64,000 nt of DNA from Sphingomonas ginsengisoli An et al. 2013 (GTDB taxonomy: Bacteria; Pseudomonadota; Alphaproteobacteria; Sphingomonadales; Sphingomonadaceae). Where the stretch lies: NCBI RefSeq assembly GCF_009363895.1, contig NZ_CP045434.1:2232001-2296000 (forward strand). Reading direction: 5' to 3'. The translations under genes and the position numbers were made by a program. Every line of letters starts with the position of its first letter. Position 1 is the first letter of the stretch. The notes beneath the pieces are model-generated. The model had not been told where the DNA came from. It worked only from the letters and a program-made list of their open reading frames with translations, and searched no databases. Below, in pieces: positions 3,562 through 59,266 of this stretch.

Positions 3562-4170
3562 ATGTTCACCGGCATCGTCACCGACATCGGCACCGTCCGC
3601 TCCGCCGAGGAGCGCGGCGACCTCAGGCTGGTGATCGGCTGCGGCTATGACATGGCCGGGGTCGCGCTGGGCGCCTCGATCGCCTGCTCCGGCTGCTGTC
3701 TGACCGTGGTCGACAAGGGCAACGACTGGTTCGCGGTCGACGTCTCGGCCGAGACCCGTAGCAAGACCGCCGCCGGCCTGTGGCAGGAAGGCGCGCGGCT
3801 CAACCTCGAGCGCGCGCTCAGGATGGGCGACGAGCTCGGCGGCCATCTGGTCACCGGGCATGTCGACGGGCTGGGCGAGGTGCTCGGCGTCTGTCCCGAA
3901 GGCGACAGCCTGCGGGTCGGGATCCGTGTCCCCGCCGCGCTCGGGCCAATGCTCGCGCCCAAGGGGTCGATCACGCTCGACGGCGTGTCGCTGACCGTCA
4001 ACGAGGTCCGCGACGAGGCCGACGGCACCCACTTTGCAGTCAATCTCATCCCCCACACCGCGCATGAGACCACGCTCGGCAATATCGCAGCCGGACGACA
4101 GCTCAATGTCGAGATCGACGTGCTGGCGCGCTATCTCGACCGGATGATGGCAGAGCGCGCACAGCGCTGA
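3562..4170 (+). CDS. ribE: Riboflavin synthase alpha chain
   Basis: Dismutates two molecules of 6,7-dimethyl-8-ribityllumazine to riboflavin and the pyrimidine substrate of lumazine synthase. The 202-residue protein begins with the diagnostic MFTGIV and consists of two lumazine-binding repeats; the second begins near residue 98 (GHVDGLGEV). It lies directly downstream of ribD and 49 bases upstream of the ribB fusion gene, with a palindrome in that gap. Length and order are normal for the family. Confidence 0.94.
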   Translation: MFTGIVTDIGTVRSAEERGDLRLVIGCGYDMAGVALGASIACSGCCLTVVDKGNDWFAVDVSAETRSKTAAGLWQEGARLNLERALRMGDELGGHLVTGHVDGLGEVLGVCPEGDSLRVGIRVPAALGPMLAPKGSITLDGVSLTVNEVRDEADGTHFAVNLIPHTAHETTLGNIAAGRQLNVEIDVLARYLDRMMAERAQR

Positions 4171-4189
4171 GGCATATTTCATGTTCGCC

Positions 4190-4209
4190 TATCACACTAC
4201 AGTGTGATA
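4190..4209 (+). promoter_or_regulatory. Perfect 9-2-9 palindrome, putative HTH operator
   Basis: TATCACACT-AC-AGTGTGATA is an exact inverted repeat of nine bases around a two-base centre. It ends 10 bases before the ATG of the HTH-ribB fusion. The possible -10 hexamer GATATT (4206-4211) overlaps its right arm, and no Shine-Dalgarno lies between it and the ATG. The position fits an operator, and the obvious candidate ligand is the helix-turn-helix domain encoded by the very next gene. I see no FMN riboswitch in this 49-base gap. Confidence 0.7.
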
Positions 4210-4219
4210 TTGCGTCGTC

Positions 4220-5506
4220 ATGTCTACCAGTCTGATCGAGCGGCTCACCGCCATCATCGACACGGGCGAGGTCAGCCGGTCCGGCCTCGCCCGTGCCGCC
4301 GGCCTCCACCCCAACAGCTTGCGCAAGCTCGGCCAGCCCGACTGGAATCCGACCGCTGACACGCTTGGCCGGCTCGAGCGGCTGTTGAAGCGTGGGACGA
4401 CCGAGGTTCTCGTCGGCGCCGAGCAGATCATCGACGAGGCGCGCAACGGGCGGATGTTCATCCTGGTCGACGACGACGACCGCGAAAATGAGGGTGACCT
4501 CATCATCCCGGCGCAGATGGCGACCCCCGACGCGATCAACTTCATGGCGCGCCACGGCCGCGGGCTGATCTGCCTCGCCCTGACCAGCGACCGGGTCGAA
4601 CAGCTTCAGCTGCCGCTGATGGCGCGCAAGAACGGCACCCGGCACGAGACCGCCTTCACCGTCTCGATCGAGGCACGCACCGGGGTGACAACCGGGATCA
4701 GCGCCGCCGACCGCGCGCGGACCATCGCGGTCGCCATCGATTCGGCCAACGGCGCCGACGCCTTGGTCAGCCCGGGCCATGTCTTCCCGCTGGTCGCGCG
4801 CGCCGGCGGGGTGCTCGTCCGCGCCGGCCACACCGAGGCCGCGGTCGACGTCTCGCGGCTCGCTGGCCTCAACCCCTCGGGCGTCATCTGCGAGATCATG
4901 AACGAGGATGGGACCATGGCCCGCCTCGACGAATTGATCGACTTCGCCCGGATGCACGGGCTCAAGATCGGCACGATCCGCGACCTCATCGCCTACCGCC
5001 TCAAGAAGGATAATATGGTCGAGCGGGTCGCCGAGACCGGCTTCACCTCGACCGGTGGCGCGACCTGGCAGGCGCAGGTGTTCCGCGACAAGGCGACCGG
5101 CGCCGAGCAGCTCGCGCTGGTTCTCGGCCCGCTCGACGTCACCCAGCCGGTGCTGGTGCGGATGCACAGCCTCGACCTGTTCGCGGACGTGCTCGGCGAG
5201 CCGGGGCAGCGCGGCGGGCTGCTCCAGCGGGCGATGCGGATGATCGAGGCAGCGGGAAGCGGGGTGATCGTCGCGCTCCACGCCGCCGCGCCGGGTTCAC
5301 TCAGCCATTCGGCCGATCGCCGCTCGGGCAAGGAAGTCGAGGAAGGCGAAATGCTGCGCAGCTACGGTGTCGGTGCGCAGATCCTCGCTGCACTCGGCAT
5401 CCACGACATGGTCTTGCTGTCGAATACGCGGCACCAGCCGGTCGGCCTGTCGGGCTACGGTCTGTCGATCGTCGAGGAACGCTGCATCCCTGAGGAGACC
5501 CACTGA
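4220..5506 (+). CDS. ribB: HTH-RibBX fusion: DHBP synthase
   Basis: Makes 3,4-dihydroxy-2-butanone 4-phosphate, the four-carbon unit of lumazine, from ribulose 5-phosphate. Three parts are visible in 428 residues. Residues 15-58 look like an XRE-type helix-turn-helix ([17 protein letters not shown]). Residues 65-265 are a complete DHBP synthase with [10 protein letters not shown] at 84-93, HTEA and GVICEI. Residues 270-428 resemble GTP cyclohydrolase II but lack the three zinc cysteines and the catalytic signature, matching the RibX domain of the RibBX variant known in Proteobacteria. True GTP cyclohydrolase II must be encoded elsewhere. The HTH domain and the upstream palindrome suggest self-regulation. 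Its stop codon overlaps the ribH start by one base. Confidence 0.88.
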
Positions 5507-54303: not shown

Positions 54304-56088
54304 TCATCCGAGCGACAACTCGTGGAGTTCATTAACTAATCGCCATTCGCCGAGGTCGGCGAGCATCACCCGCGCGGCCTGCTCGGTGAGGTCGGCGGTG
54401 CGCGGGAGGGTGGTCGCCAGCTTGAGGTCGGTGACGATCCGCTCGAGCTGGTCGGCGGTGTTGCGCGCACGCGAGGCGAGCGAACCGAAGTCGCCCTGGA
54501 CGCGGATGCCGAAGATGGCGGTGCCGAGCGCGGGCAGGCCCGCCGAGAGCACGGTGCTCCATGCGCCGATCCGCTGGAGCAAAGGTGGATCGAACAGCAG
54601 GCAACCGACCGAGAAGAGGGTCACGCCAAGGGTCGCGGCGAAGATCGCCAGCGCCGCCCACTCGAGCCGTTCGTCGAGCGCCTTCACCTGGCCGCTGGTG
54701 TGGCGGTTGTAGTCGACCTGGGGCTGCAACTCGTGCGCGGCAATCGCCGCCGCCAGCGGCTGCACTTCGTCGAGGTCGAGCCGACCGGCGGGGCAGCCGA
54801 TCGTCCGCCACACCGCCGCTGCATACCAGTCGATCCAGCGCCGGGCGACCGGCTCGGCGGCGTTACCGGGCGGGTCGGGCGCGGCGATGCCGAGCAGCTT
54901 GAGGCTGCGCATCGGTCGCAACCGTTCCGCCAATTGGCGATAGTCGAGCCAGCGCTGGTGCCAGCCGCGCCGCGACCCGGCCTGGGTGTTGACGATCACC
55001 GCCAGCACCACCGCCGCCTCGATCAGCGCGAGCTCGAGCGGGTTGGTCGGCAGCACCAGTCCGCTCAACCCCACCAGCGCGCCGAAGGCGGCCAGCAGGA
55101 AGTTGAACACCAGGCTCGAGCGATAGGTCTGGGCAAAGTGGCTCGCCAGCCCGTCGCTCCACACATAGGCGCGCTGGAGCAGGTCGAGCGGCACCCCGAC
55201 GCCGTGGCAGTCGGCGCAGCTCAAGCGGTAGCTGTCCCACTCATCCGCCGCCGCCTGAAGCTGCGGGCGGGCGGTGAGGTCGCGGCGCGAGATTCGGCGG
55301 GTGCCCGCCAGCGTCATCAGCAACGGATATTCGACCCGCCAGCGCCACAGCCGCAAGCGTTCGTTGCGGAAGCGGTCGAAATATTGCCGCTCTGGTGGAT
55401 CAGCCGGGGGCAGCAGCACGGCCGACAGCACCGCGCGCAGCGTCGCCGCGTCGGCCGGGCGGCCGCACTGGCGATCGCCGGGACTGGTCACCACCACCGG
55501 GTCGAACGCGCTCCACAGCAGGGTCACCGGCTGGTCCGGATCGGTCGGCAAATGGATCACCGGGGTCCCGCGCAGCAGAGCGGCGTCGACCGTCTCGGCC
55601 GTGCCGCCGCGGCCGCGTGCCAGCTCGCCGTCCCAGATCGCGATCAGCAGGTCGGAATGGGCGATGGTCGCGCGGCCGGCCATAACGAACCCGTCGAGCG
55701 GCCGCTCCGGCTCGCCGGGCAATTCGAGCACGCAGCCTGCCGCGGCCACCAGCCGGTCGAGTTCGGCCGCCTCGTCTTGGTCCATTGTCTCGGCGTAGCT
55801 GGCCCGGTCGAACGGCAGCACCGCCTGCAACCGCCAGCCGCGCTCGAGCGCGACCGCCGCCGCCATTTGGTCCGCGCCCGATGCGAGCGGGGAGACGAGA
55901 GTCAGGATCGGCGGCGGCGGAGCGAACAGCGCCGCTTCCTGCGCATGGAGGTCGCCGGCGATTCCCTCGATGTCGGCGATCAGCCGGGTCAGCCGATCCC
56001 GCAGGCCCGCGGCATCGCCTAGCCCCGCGCGGCGGTGGCCAGTGATCCCGACCGCCAGGGCAAAAGGGACGGGCGCATATTCGCTCAA
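54304..56088 (-). CDS. SLOG-like domain plus four-helix membrane protein
   Basis: 594 residues. The N-terminal part (about 10-185) looks like a SLOG nucleotide-binding Rossmann domain: GITGHR (14-19), LVSPLASGADQMAA (65-76), LQAVLPF (87-93) and LLIAIWDGE with GRGGTAETVDAAL (147-171). Two helix pairs follow: about 324-345 and 352-369, then 477-499 and 508-530. After the first pair, WLDYRQLAERLR resembles the helix behind SLATT-type membrane effectors; the second ends in LASRARNTADQLE. The design suggests a ligand-gated membrane effector. It overlaps the upstream gene by four bases. Domain names are by motif resemblance, without a database search. Confidence 0.7.
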   Translation of the reverse strand: MSEYAPVPFALAVGITGHRRAGLGDAAGLRDRLTRLIADIEGIAGDLHAQEAALFAPPPPILTLVSPLASGADQMAAAVALERGWRLQAVLPFDRASYAETMDQDEAAELDRLVAAAGCVLELPGEPERPLDGFVMAGRATIAHSDLLIAIWDGELARGRGGTAETVDAALLRGTPVIHLPTDPDQPVTLLWSAFDPVVVTSPGDRQCGRPADAATLRAVLSAVLLPPADPPERQYFDRFRNERLRLWRWRVEYPLLMTLAGTRRISRRDLTARPQLQAAADEWDSYRLSCADCHGVGVPLDLLQRAYVWSDGLASHFAQTYRSSLVFNFLLAAFGALVGLSGLVLPTNPLELALIEAAVVLAVIVNTQAGSRRGWHQRWLDYRQLAERLRPMRSLKLLGIAAPDPPGNAAEPVARRWIDWYAAAVWRTIGCPAGRLDLDEVQPLAAAIAAHELQPQVDYNRHTSGQVKALDERLEWAALAIFAATLGVTLFSVGCLLFDPPLLQRIGAWSTVLSAGLPALGTAIFGIRVQGDFGSLASRARNTADQLERIVTDLKLATTLPRTADLTEQAARVMLADLGEWRLVNELHELSLG

Positions 56089-56612
56089 TCGTCGGCCGTG
56101 TCGCGCCAGAAGGAGATCAGCGCCGCCAGGCCCGCGATTGCGAACAGCCCGCCTACCGCGCCGATGATCGCGACACTGTTCGCCTCCCAGAAGCTCGCGC
56201 CGCCATTCTGGTTATTCATGATCGGGTCGAGGCTGATCGGCTTCCGCACCCCGTCGGCGTCGACCAGGTTGAGGGTGTATTTGAGCTGTTGGCAACTCGG
56301 GTCGCGGTTGGTGACATATAATTCGAGCCCGTCTGCACTCGTGCCGTCATACACGAAGCTGGGATGAGGCTGATACTTCGTCGGGCAACCCTTCGCGGCG
56401 TCCTGGACCCAGAAGCCGTCTTCGTCGCTGGCGAAGACGAAGTTGGCCGGATGAGGATTCTGGATCCGGAAGGTGATGGCATAGACCCAGTCGCCTGGGA
56501 TCTTGTCATCCTTCTTGTTGAACTTCAGATCTTTGATCTTCGTGATGGAATAATCGCCCGAGGCGTCCTTGTGGACGATTACCGGCACCATGATGGGCTT
56601 CGATTTCGTCAT
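56085..56612 (-). CDS. Tail-anchored protein with DPIMNNQNGG motif
   Basis: 175 residues, function unknown. No signal peptide. Residues 5-128 are strand-rich (YSITKIKDLKF, GDWVYAITFRIQNP, GLELYVTN). The motif DPIMNNQNGG (129-138) follows, then one C-terminal membrane helix (about 147-168) and a short acidic tail. The segment VTNRDPSC-QQLKYTLNLVDADG (99-121) aligns with VRNDNAEPC-LLSFRLNFVAAEG in the next-upstream gene, so the two are paralogues. Codon use is visibly richer in A/T than the neighbours. It starts 12 bases after the paralogue and overlaps the SLOG gene. Confidence 0.7.
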   Translation of the reverse strand: MTKSKPIMVPVIVHKDASGDYSITKIKDLKFNKKDDKIPGDWVYAITFRIQNPHPANFVFASDEDGFWVQDAAKGCPTKYQPHPSFVYDGTSADGLELYVTNRDPSCQQLKYTLNLVDADGVRKPISLDPIMNNQNGGASFWEANSVAIIGAVGGLFAIAGLAALISFWRDTADD

Positions 56613-56624
56613 GACCGCTCCTCT

Positions 56625-57122
56625 TTAATTCCTGCTGCCCGAGCCACCGTTCTGGTTGTTCATGATCGGGTCGAGGAAGGCGACGATCGTGTCGCCCGGA
56701 CCCTCGGCCGCGACAAAATTGAGCCGGAAGCTCAGCAGGCAGGGCTCGGCATTGTCGTTGCGGACGCGCAGCCGCTTTGGCCTCGACGAGAGCGGGACCA
56801 CGCCGTGGTCGCGCGACGGCGCCATCGGGTACGGCGGCGCGGCGGCGGCAGTGCCGCGCGCGACCCAGATGGCGGTGAACTTGTCGGGATGGAAAGCCAG
56901 CGCCCCGCTCGGATCATCGAGCATGAAGTCGGCCTCGTGCCAGTCGCGCTTGTGCAGTCCGAGCGCGTCCTTGCTGTAGGTGACCTCGGCCGTCGCCTTA
57001 CCGTCCGCTTGCAGCTCGAACGACCAGTCGGCCCCGTTCCGCCGCGCCTTGACGGTCAGTTCGCTGGCATGGGCGCGACCTTCGGTTTTGGGCGACGGCG
57101 GGCGGTGGGCGGTGTCCGGCAT
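56625..57122 (-). CDS. Soluble paralogue with DPIMNNQNGG motif
   Basis: 165 residues, function unknown, no signal or membrane segment. Residues 20-150 are strand-rich (ADWSFELQADGKATAEV, DFMLDDPSGALAF, KRLRVRN). The conserved C-terminal stretch contains Cys128 and ends with DPIMNNQNGG (151-160) five residues before the stop. The distance from Cys to the motif (23 residues) nearly equals that in the tail-anchored paralogue (22). The ATG at 57122 gives the compact domain; a longer frame exists but reads as arginine-rich shadow sequence. It begins 23 bases after the TIR-TPR stop. Confidence 0.68.
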   Translation of the reverse strand: MPDTAHRPPSPKTEGRAHASELTVKARRNGADWSFELQADGKATAEVTYSKDALGLHKRDWHEADFMLDDPSGALAFHPDKFTAIWVARGTAAAAPPYPMAPSRDHGVVPLSSRPKRLRVRNDNAEPCLLSFRLNFVAAEGPGDTIVAFLDPIMNNQNGGSGSRN

Positions 57123-57145
57123 GGTCGAGGTCCCCAAAGTGCGTG

Positions 57146-59266
57146 TCACGTCCGCCAACCGGTGGCGGCAAGCTGGGCGCCGAGCGCGCTCGCTTCGGCG
57201 CTGCGGCCCAGCCGCTCGAGCAATAACTGGCGTTGCGCGAGGTCGGTGGGCGTCTGCTCGACCGTGATCGGCCAAGTCGCGAGCGCCTCGTTCCAGGCGG
57301 TCATCGCCGACGCCCGGTCGCCCATCGCGGCGGCGATATCGCCGGCCAGCGATTGCGCCCGCGCCAGCGCGAAGCGCGCGTCGATCGGGTCGGCGCCGGG
57401 ATCGTTGCGGATTTCGGCGATGAGCTGGCCGGCGGTCAGCATCGCCGACGCGGCGGCGCCTTGAGCAAGGCTGAGCCGCGCGCGGTCGTCGAGGCATTTG
57501 CGCCGCATCTTCTTGGCCAACACCGCGCTATTGGCGGGGTTGAGCCGCTCGGCCACCTTGCAGCCGGCCTCGGTGAACGTCGCCGCGGCGCCAAGCTGGC
57601 CCTGCCGCAGCAGCAGCGCCGCATGTTCAAGCCGCGCGCCCGCCGCGCTGCTGGCCCAATTGCCATTGGCCGGGTCGCGGCGGACCAAAAGGTCGGCCAG
57701 CGCCACCCCGCGGCCCGAGATCGCGAGCGCGGCGACGCGATCGCCGACCGCCGCCTGCTCGCGCGCCAGCGAGCGCAGCGCGACCAGCTCCTTTTCGAGC
57801 AGCAGGCTGTTGTCGGGAGCCGGCGCCAGCGCCTGCTGCAAGGTGGCGAGCTGCCGCATCCGCTCGGCTACCGCGGCGGGCAATTGGCCTGAGCGTTCGA
57901 GCGCATCGGCGAGGTCGCCCCGCGCCTCGATCTCGAGACTCGCATAATCGGCATTGGCGGGATCGGCGCGGCGCAGCGTCCCAAGCGGCTTCAGGACATG
58001 GCCGAAGCGCGTTGCTGCCTCGCGCGAATGGCGCGTCTGCAGCGCCAGCACGCCGAGATTGCTGTCGGCGTAGATGCCCTCGAGCTGCCATTTCACATTG
58101 GCCGGCTCGGCGGCGATCATGCGGTCGGCGAGCGCGCGATAGTCGGTGAAGCGCGCGCCGGCCTCGTCGTAACGGCCCTGGGTCGCGGCGAGATTGCCGA
58201 TCCAGAAGACGTTCTGGGCCTGGTCGAACAGCCGCTGTGGGTTGGCGGGATCACGGCGCAGCGCCTCGGTCGTGCTCGCCAGCCCCTCGCGGTACAGCGC
58301 CAGCGCGCGGGCCAGGTCGCCGCGGCGCTGGGCGATGTCGCCCATCAGCGTCAGCGCCCGGCTGCGCTGGCCCAGCGCTTCGTCGCTCAAGCCCGCCTTG
58401 TCCTGATGCTCATAGTAATTGAGCACCTTGCCGCCGACCGCGTCGAGCGCGTCGAGCCGCCCAACCGGCTCCAATTTGTCCTTCAAATCGCCGATCATGA
58501 AGCCGACCAGGCTTTCGGCCTGGCGACGCTGGTCGCGCGCCTCGTCGCGTGCCTGCAACGCCACCACCGCCAGCCCGGTGGTCAGCAGCATCCCTGCGAT
58601 CGACCCTGCGCTGACCAGCATCCAGCGACGGTGTCGCTGCTGTTCCTCGCGCTGGACCAGCTCGTCGAGGCGGACGTCGAGCATCCCCGCGACGAGCTTG
58701 AGCAATCCCATGTCGCGGCCGTCGGCTTCCGCGCGCAGGTCGGCGGCGATCGGCTCGGCATCGTCGCCGACCAGCCGGCCCCGCGCGTCATAACGTTCGC
58801 TCAGCGCCGCGGGCAGGCACTCACTGGCGGGATCGGCTGAGTGGGGTTCGCCGCCGACGATCGCGGCGAGCACCTTGCCGTCGGGACGCAGCCGCTTGAA
58901 GGCGCGGATCTCGGCATTGACCCAGCGACTGGCGACGGTCGCGGGGGAGCAGAGCACGATGAGGTGGCGCGAGCCCTCGATCATATCGTTGATGTCGCCG
59001 CCAAGATCGCCCGACGCCGCCAGCTCGCTGCGGTCCTGGAAGATCGGGGCGAGCGTGCGCGGGACGAGGAAACGCTCGGTGCGGCGCCCGACCAGCTCTG
59101 GCGGAACGCGGAATCGTTCCAGCGCGCGGTGCAGCCAGTCGGCGTGGCCCGCATCGGCATGGCTGTAGCTCAGGAAGGCCCAGTAGCGCTGGACGAACGG
59201 CTTGCGCGCGGCCGGCTTGCGGGATCGTCCCGCGCGCGATCGCGACAGAAGGGCCGATTCATCCAC
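57146..59266 (-). CDS. TIR-transmembrane-TPR protein
   Basis: 706 residues. An N-terminal TIR domain (about 27-150) shows AFLSYSHAD (30-38), FQDRSELAASGDL and HLIVLCSPATVASRWVNAEI, with Glu119 at the position of the NAD-cleaving glutamate of enzymatic TIR domains. One membrane helix (about 215-238) follows, then LVGFMIGDLKDKLEPVGRLD and a long run of TPR-like helices to the end. The TIR domain would face the cytoplasm and the TPR array the periplasm if the helix crosses once. It is first in a four-gene operon. Likely roles are NAD cleavage or nucleotide signalling triggered through the TPR part. Confidence 0.82.
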   Translation of the reverse strand: MDESALLSRSRAGRSRKPAARKPFVQRYWAFLSYSHADAGHADWLHRALERFRVPPELVGRRTERFLVPRTLAPIFQDRSELAASGDLGGDINDMIEGSRHLIVLCSPATVASRWVNAEIRAFKRLRPDGKVLAAIVGGEPHSADPASECLPAALSERYDARGRLVGDDAEPIAADLRAEADGRDMGLLKLVAGMLDVRLDELVQREEQQRHRRWMLVSAGSIAGMLLTTGLAVVALQARDEARDQRRQAESLVGFMIGDLKDKLEPVGRLDALDAVGGKVLNYYEHQDKAGLSDEALGQRSRALTLMGDIAQRRGDLARALALYREGLASTTEALRRDPANPQRLFDQAQNVFWIGNLAATQGRYDEAGARFTDYRALADRMIAAEPANVKWQLEGIYADSNLGVLALQTRHSREAATRFGHVLKPLGTLRRADPANADYASLEIEARGDLADALERSGQLPAAVAERMRQLATLQQALAPAPDNSLLLEKELVALRSLAREQAAVGDRVAALAISGRGVALADLLVRRDPANGNWASSAAGARLEHAALLLRQGQLGAAATFTEAGCKVAERLNPANSAVLAKKMRRKCLDDRARLSLAQGAAASAMLTAGQLIAEIRNDPGADPIDARFALARAQSLAGDIAAAMGDRASAMTAWNEALATWPITVEQTPTDLAQRQLLLERLGRSAEASALGAQLAATGWRT

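Follow-up and report, generated by a model that had tools for sequence, protein, structure and literature searches.

A Sphingomonas TIR operon points to a recurrent pairing of membrane TPR receptors with SO1698-like Asp-Pro proteins

The 64,000-nucleotide window analysed here (Sphingomonas ginsengisoli, contig NZ_CP045434.1, positions 2,232,001 to 2,296,000) contains an operon of four minus-strand genes; all feature coordinates given below refer to the window and to its minus strand. The open reading frames (ORFs) agreed with the original prediction, made from the sequence alone, of four consecutive genes separated by 23, 12 and -4 bases, which confirmed the four-gene observation at the locus. 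From gene 1 to gene 4 they encode a protein with a TIR domain, a transmembrane (TM) segment and TPRs (57146..59266, 706 amino acids (aa), GTG start, identified as an ORF and by profile matches), two small proteins termed s1 (56625..57122, 165 aa) and s2 (56085..56612, 175 aa), and a SLOG–SLATT protein (54304..56088, 594 aa, TTG start). Gene order was conserved in other genomes and, therefore, the operon arrangement is not a product of chance. Genes, including those in loci from other genomes (denoted by L numbers), were called with a simple codon-usage script and not with a curated caller, and parts of some genes were missed (L216).

The proposal that the first gene encodes a TIR–TM–TPR protein with a glutamate at the NADase position was borne out by profiles over their cut-offs, by the hydrophobic segment and by the glutamate itself. 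The TIR domain (residues 30-137, 58856..59179) exceeded the curated cut-offs of TIR_2 (42.3 bits, cut-off 28) and ThsB_TIR (30.4 bits, cut-off 21.2), with both matches beginning at residue 30, and the single hydrophobic segment of the protein spans residues 217-235. This segment lies within the conserved TPR half (residues 216-546, 57629..58621), which was delimited by alignment A6 and by hidden Markov model (HMM) matches; the matches to TPR models fell under their cut-offs. Glu119, which we take to be the catalytic-position glutamate of the W-x-x-x-E motif of TIR NADases, corresponded to glutamate in 33 of the 34 aligned proteins (the window protein counted), the remaining row being gapped. 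This protein gave the only TM–TPR match reported within its own genome, where seven TIR domains scored above cut-off, that is, six more TIR_2 domains beyond the window. Near 2.52 Mb of the same genome, two of these six domains and one weaker match lie inside about 3.4 kb.

The small proteins are paralogous, as had been proposed (32% across about 100 residues, E value 1.4e-4), and share the identical sequence DPIMNNQNGG. It starts at Asp151-Pro152 in s1 (56643..56672) and at Asp129-Pro130 in s2 (56199..56228), where it is placed between the β-domain and a hydrophobic C-terminal tail (residues 150-168, 56109..56165, hydropathy 2.17) that s1 does not have. Within the window's own genome, the small-protein match was limited to the s1 and s2 genes. 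The Asp-Pro pair was conserved in all 13 of the s1 relatives recovered by sequence and stood at the motif in 21 of the 23 small proteins found by HMM outside the training loci; as a background rate, 48 of 559 other short genes encode an Asp-Pro within the last 40 residues. Its invariance in alignment A1 is partly circular, because the small proteins of A1 were gathered partly via a loose [DN]P motif, and so is the figure of 28/31 for the TIR set. Two rows of unrelated proteins were discarded before A1 was built, and one L074 protein was taken from a later in-frame start.

The role of sensors or adaptors assigned to s1 and s2 has to be redrawn, as they are not nondescript adaptors and resemble the self-cleaving SO1698 family. 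In structure predictions, both appear as fold-level relatives of Shewanella SO1698 (PF08985, DP-EP, DUF1888; PDB 3n55, mutants 3njf-3njn): the nearest structures were those of SO1698, and the likeness comprises a β-sandwich and, as in the DP-EP family, a C-terminal Asp-Pro with an [IV]xN-like tail behind it. Compared with SO1698, s1 and s2 score under the Pfam cut-off, have a longer body, appear to leave the position of the catalytic Asp unconserved, include a tail-anchored version (s2) and accompany a TIR protein instead of a winged helix-turn-helix (wHTH)–nSTAND1 protein. SO1698 has been solved structurally and cleaves itself, and we know of no biological role for it; a 2012 JBC paper reportedly demonstrates self-cleavage at Asp-Pro together with a Lys98-Asp116 link. 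The PDB titles list single mutants at Tyr26, Asp37, Lys98, Ser114, Pro115, Asp116, Pro117 and Gln118. In PMC11655445, SO1698 is employed as a self-cleaving endopeptidase, and for a different protein, FrpC, PMC7846742 describes an Asp-Pro autoproteolysis that yields a reactive aspartic anhydride.

The fourth protein begins with a SLOG domain (residues 9-187, 55528..56064) harbouring the motifs GITGHR, VSPLASGAD and GRGGT, and a structure model bore out the predicted Rossmann-like SLOG fold, on the YpsA/DprA side. The two helix pairs expected behind it were recovered as well. The first (residues 308-391, 54916..55167; predicted helices 302-342 and 350-374) is DUF4231-like and slightly under the cut-off (23.9 bits, cut-off 24.7; E value 5.7e-5), and the second (residues 453-582, 54343..54732) is the best stretch of a match to the curated SLATT_1 profile NF033634 (48.0 bits, cut-off 41), consistent with the SLATT-type membrane helices originally suggested. 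A TIR-domain gene was found at most 3 genes from the SLOG–SLATT gene in 28 of 41 loci picked by SLOG match, a count obtained with a TIR-domain HMM built partly on TIRs from the loci counted. This HMM count replaced a single-linkage cluster count (14 further loci), which was dropped because the cluster was mixed. Thirteen of the 41 SLOG loci (L044, L047, L050, L053, L054, L056 and others) have, near the SLOG–SLATT gene, a member of a cluster of genes for proteins of about 150 aa, one of which was scanned and matched Ion_trans_2, a predicted ion channel. In L047 (6561-7598), a TIR–FHA protein is encoded immediately upstream of the SLOG–SLATT gene.

The TM–TPR and small Asp-Pro protein pair proved more stable than the four-gene set. 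By SO1698 sequence alone, 25 SO1698-type loci were fetched from Shewanella, Rheinheimera, Arsukibacterium, Alishewanella and other gammaproteobacteria; as they were found through the DP-EP gene, the upstream gene alone is informative. In all 25, the DP-EP gene directly followed the gene of a protein of about 1,080 residues, and all 25 upstream proteins matched the window TIR–TPR profile (E values from 4e-60 to 2e-46), the strong part of the match being the TM–TPR half and not the TIR. Hence, SO1698-type genes also adjoin a TM–TPR receptor homologue. Three of these upstream proteins were scanned and carried a Trans_reg_C wHTH, then an nSTAND1 NTPase and then the TM–TPR half. Since homologous TM–TPR halves recur beside small proteins of one kind but bear different output domains, the recurrent unit, as judged from sequence comparison, consists of a DP-type β-sandwich protein and a TM–TPR receptor whose output can be exchanged; SLOG–SLATT would be an optional third part.

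Some features of the gammaproteobacterial loci should be mentioned. Among L093-L117, a GGDEF gene often lies 3' of the DP-EP gene (the one scanned encodes a PAS-like sensor plus GGDEF, and the others have similar C-termini). In some loci there is a second DP-EP gene, whose product begins like a signal peptide; by eye, such starts were seen in the second genes of L094, L113 and L114, and also in the gene of L214 from the phylum sample described below. A short protein near one DP-EP locus (L109:10669-11139), presumably PixA/AidA-like, has a tail containing W-D-P.

When the TM–TPR alignment was run against a phylum sample, 66 of 299 genomes gave a match (E <= 0.001), many of them through generic TPRs only. 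From 18 stretches of this sample, 15 TM–TPR genes passed a stricter test, and a small neighbour was detected by HMM in 8 of them, or in 11 once L217, L220 and L226, read by eye, were added. The output was TIR in the scanned L212, L217, L221 and L226, wHTH–nSTAND1 in the scanned L214, L215, L218 and L220, and nSTAND1 in L216, where the gene call is cut at the start. With all sets combined, 70 of the 82 TM–TPR genes had an HMM-supported small neighbour, and four more (L163, L217, L220, L226) rest on a motif read by eye; a candidate in L223 was rejected as a chance motif. The small-protein HMM found no match elsewhere among 1,700 genes. In L161, the small gene lies one gene further off, beyond a split TIR ORF. 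A protein with a PEP-CTERM-like tail, perhaps a substitute partner, adjoins the TIR gene in L041, L044 and L046, which have no small DP gene (judged by eye); one L046 neighbour scanned with Pfam stayed under the cut-off.

Within the genus, the operon sits at a site flanked by ispG and a nuclease gene, or is missing from it. Sixty-one genomes of the genus were sampled, ispG was found in 60 and 34 of those loci were fetched. A TIR gene stood beside ispG in 11 loci, 10 of which also had the SLOG–SLATT gene; the remaining one (L160) did not, and L073-L075, chosen for having a TIR without a SLOG match, also had no SLOG–SLATT at the ispG site. The four genes, taken originally as one set, are thus not obligately associated. 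In the nearest sampled genome by ispG (96%), the nuclease gene adjoins ispG with no gene called in between. L160 also encodes (3993-4496) a small protein whose tail, IEIRNGG, is similar and whose C-terminus is hydrophobic, but in which the motif Asp-Pro is absent; the adjoining paralogue keeps it. In L161 and L171, the TIR ORFs beside ispG look split (in L171 the SLOG too), due to decay or assembly error. Outside the class, L221 combines a TIR–TM–TPR protein, a small protein without Asp-Pro and a SLOG–SLATT protein (A2 profile E value 1.5e-47; DUF4231 over cut-off; SLATT_1 38.5 bits, under the cut-off of 41). The third gene encodes a TPR-S protein in L217 and L226, and in L082 a TPR-S–guanylate cyclase follows the TIR gene.

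On these grounds we propose, giving it about an even chance, that the Asp-Pro partners control a TIR receptor and that the nucleotide signal made by this receptor opens the SLOG–SLATT membrane protein. A sensing complex would be formed by the small partners and the receptor's TPR half; the partners would fold like SO1698 and probably cleave, or be capable of cleaving, themselves at Asp-Pro. The s1 protein would be soluble, and cutting of s2 at Asp-Pro would part its β-domain from the membrane tail, provided that the tail strand does not remain attached. Once the receptor–partner complex changes, the TIR domains could act on NAD+ to generate an ADP-ribose-type signal, and binding of this signal by SLOG would make the SLATT helices open or deform in the membrane. 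Overall, the original interpretation of a TIR-made signal perceived by SLOG is partly supported.

A number of observations weigh against this proposal. Topology is its weakest point: a single TM segment would leave TIR and TPR separated by the membrane, and s1 and s2 have no signal peptide as judged by eye. The curated DP-EP model left s1 unmatched, the best of 48 small proteins reaching an E value of 0.15, and it matched none of 196 genomes of the order, but 14 control genomes equally gave none. A narrow profile from s1 alone reached a probability of 0.7, the s1 structure model is moderate (pLDDT 63), and the position aligned with SO1698 Asp37 is not conserved, being mostly Glu or Arg in s1 relatives and frequently preceded by an acidic residue. 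L221 and L160 each have a small protein without the motif Asp-Pro. Eight of the 82 TM–TPR genes have no small neighbour directly beside them, including those of L222-L225, which show a different domain plan. Finally, some operons lack SLOG–SLATT, and in 13 of the 41 SLOG–SLATT loci no TIR gene occurs within 3 genes.

The tails of the small proteins bear on the part attributed to cleavage. In 15 neighbouring small-gene pairs, the residues after Asp-Pro agreed at 0.69 and the bodies at 0.32, and between operons, at body identities of 0.25-0.35, tails agreed at 0.31 (369 pairs sampled); four of the 15 pairs are gammaproteobacterial (0.25-0.62), the between-operon set consists of sphingomonads only, and phylogeny was not corrected for. 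In the two loci with separate TIR genes for the two small genes, the agreement fell to 0.0 (L061) and 0.12 (L089). As tails match within operons more than bodies do, these results suggest that the tail is read by a common partner or that strands are exchanged between both small proteins. They would also suit an alternative to which we assign rather less than an even chance, namely that the Asp-Pro bond stays uncut and the β-sandwich and DPIIxNxG tail form a docking module, whose tail the cognate TPR receptor would read as a recognition peptide or an exchanged strand. Docking would account for tails that agree within operons despite differing bodies and disagree in L061 and L089, for the lack of a conserved equivalent of SO1698 Asp37 and for the similar tails retained without Asp-Pro in L221 and L160, whereas the maintenance of the motif Asp-Pro in the 21/23 and 13/13 proteins mentioned above, and closest structures that belong to a self-cleaving protein, argue against it.

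A second alternative, which we consider doubtful, is that the operon serves as a general envelope or stress sensor and not in defence, with the TM–TPR/DP part sensing a membrane condition and TIR or wHTH–nSTAND1 as the output. In the neighbourhood survey called for by the original prediction, TIR genes do lie near SLOG–SLATT (28/41) and the set occurs again in L221; the operon flanks are housekeeping genes, at one fixed chromosomal site in the genus. Such flanks count against a defence reading, and so does the Shewanella/Rheinheimera version, fused to the transcription-factor domain of the wHTH–nSTAND1 proteins (three scanned) and often followed by a GGDEF gene (one scanned). The TIR protein had no match at E 1e-10 among 50,697 phage records and matched one plasmid record at E 1e-30, and in PADLOC the SLOG protein matched ShosA alone, and weakly (E value 0.031), while the other three had no match. 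On the other side, TIR, STAND, SLOG and SLATT are typical of conflict systems, and presence/absence differs within the genus; on this domain repertoire and this variation we put forward anti-phage defence as a hypothesis.

It is improbable that the TIR protein alone depletes NAD+ and SLOG–SLATT is a neighbour with a separate trigger: TIR–small operons without SLOG (L073-L075, L160) and the 13 of 41 SLOG–SLATT loci without a nearby TIR gene would fit, whereas at the ispG site SLOG was never seen apart from TIR (10/10), the co-occurrence recurs outside the class (L221), and the other third genes (TPR-S in L217 and L226, TPR-S–guanylate cyclase in L082) also suggest a nucleotide signal.

The proposed TIR-to-SLOG–SLATT signalling has partial counterparts in known systems. 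TRPM2-type channels, gated by ADP-ribose, have an N-terminal SLOG-like domain, although the resemblance is in plan only, SLATT helices not being a TRP channel. Thoeris (ThsB TIR, ThsA SLOG effector) likewise has, within a single operon, a ThsB-like TIR together with a protein that bears SLOG; in the window, however, SLOG is fused to SLATT, the TIR protein is membrane-anchored with TPRs and two DP proteins are added, and Thoeris itself was rejected because none of the four window proteins matched SIR2 or ThsA. SLATT (2TM) effectors of predicted nucleotide-signal conflict systems share with the window protein a SLATT_1 match over cut-off and the association with TIR and SLOG, but the window protein fuses two helix pairs to a single SLOG domain. 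The accessible parts of PMC7159879 and PMC9503650 predict SLATT to be a nucleotide-responsive pore-forming effector, at times found with TIR, and their accounts of SLATT do not include the TM–TPR/DP partner unit. Nor did the accessible portion of the open-access literature yield a link between DUF1888/DP-EP or SO1698 and TIR, STAND or SLATT, or a description of a TM–TPR receptor with an SO1698-like protein. This unit, in which the output is exchangeable and SLOG–SLATT optional, is the new point of the analysis.

A broader and tentative idea, unlikely as it stands, is that Asp-Pro autoproteolysis triggers a widespread class of bacterial membrane receptors. A TM–TPR receptor with a swappable output (TIR or wHTH–nSTAND1) would be held by the SO1698-type β-sandwich, and the receptor would be switched on by cleavage, by s1/s2 strand exchange via the identical tails, or by a transient Asp anhydride that becomes joined to a partner. 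If true, the self-cleaving SO1698 family would gain a function. The present comparison ties this family to membrane TIR and STAND receptors across several groups of Pseudomonadota, and provides a bacterial case in which one protein joins SLOG to membrane helices and shares its operon with a TIR enzyme; this case could reveal how a signal made by TIR affects a membrane. It also raises the testable question of whether Asp-Pro cleavage controls TIR activity.

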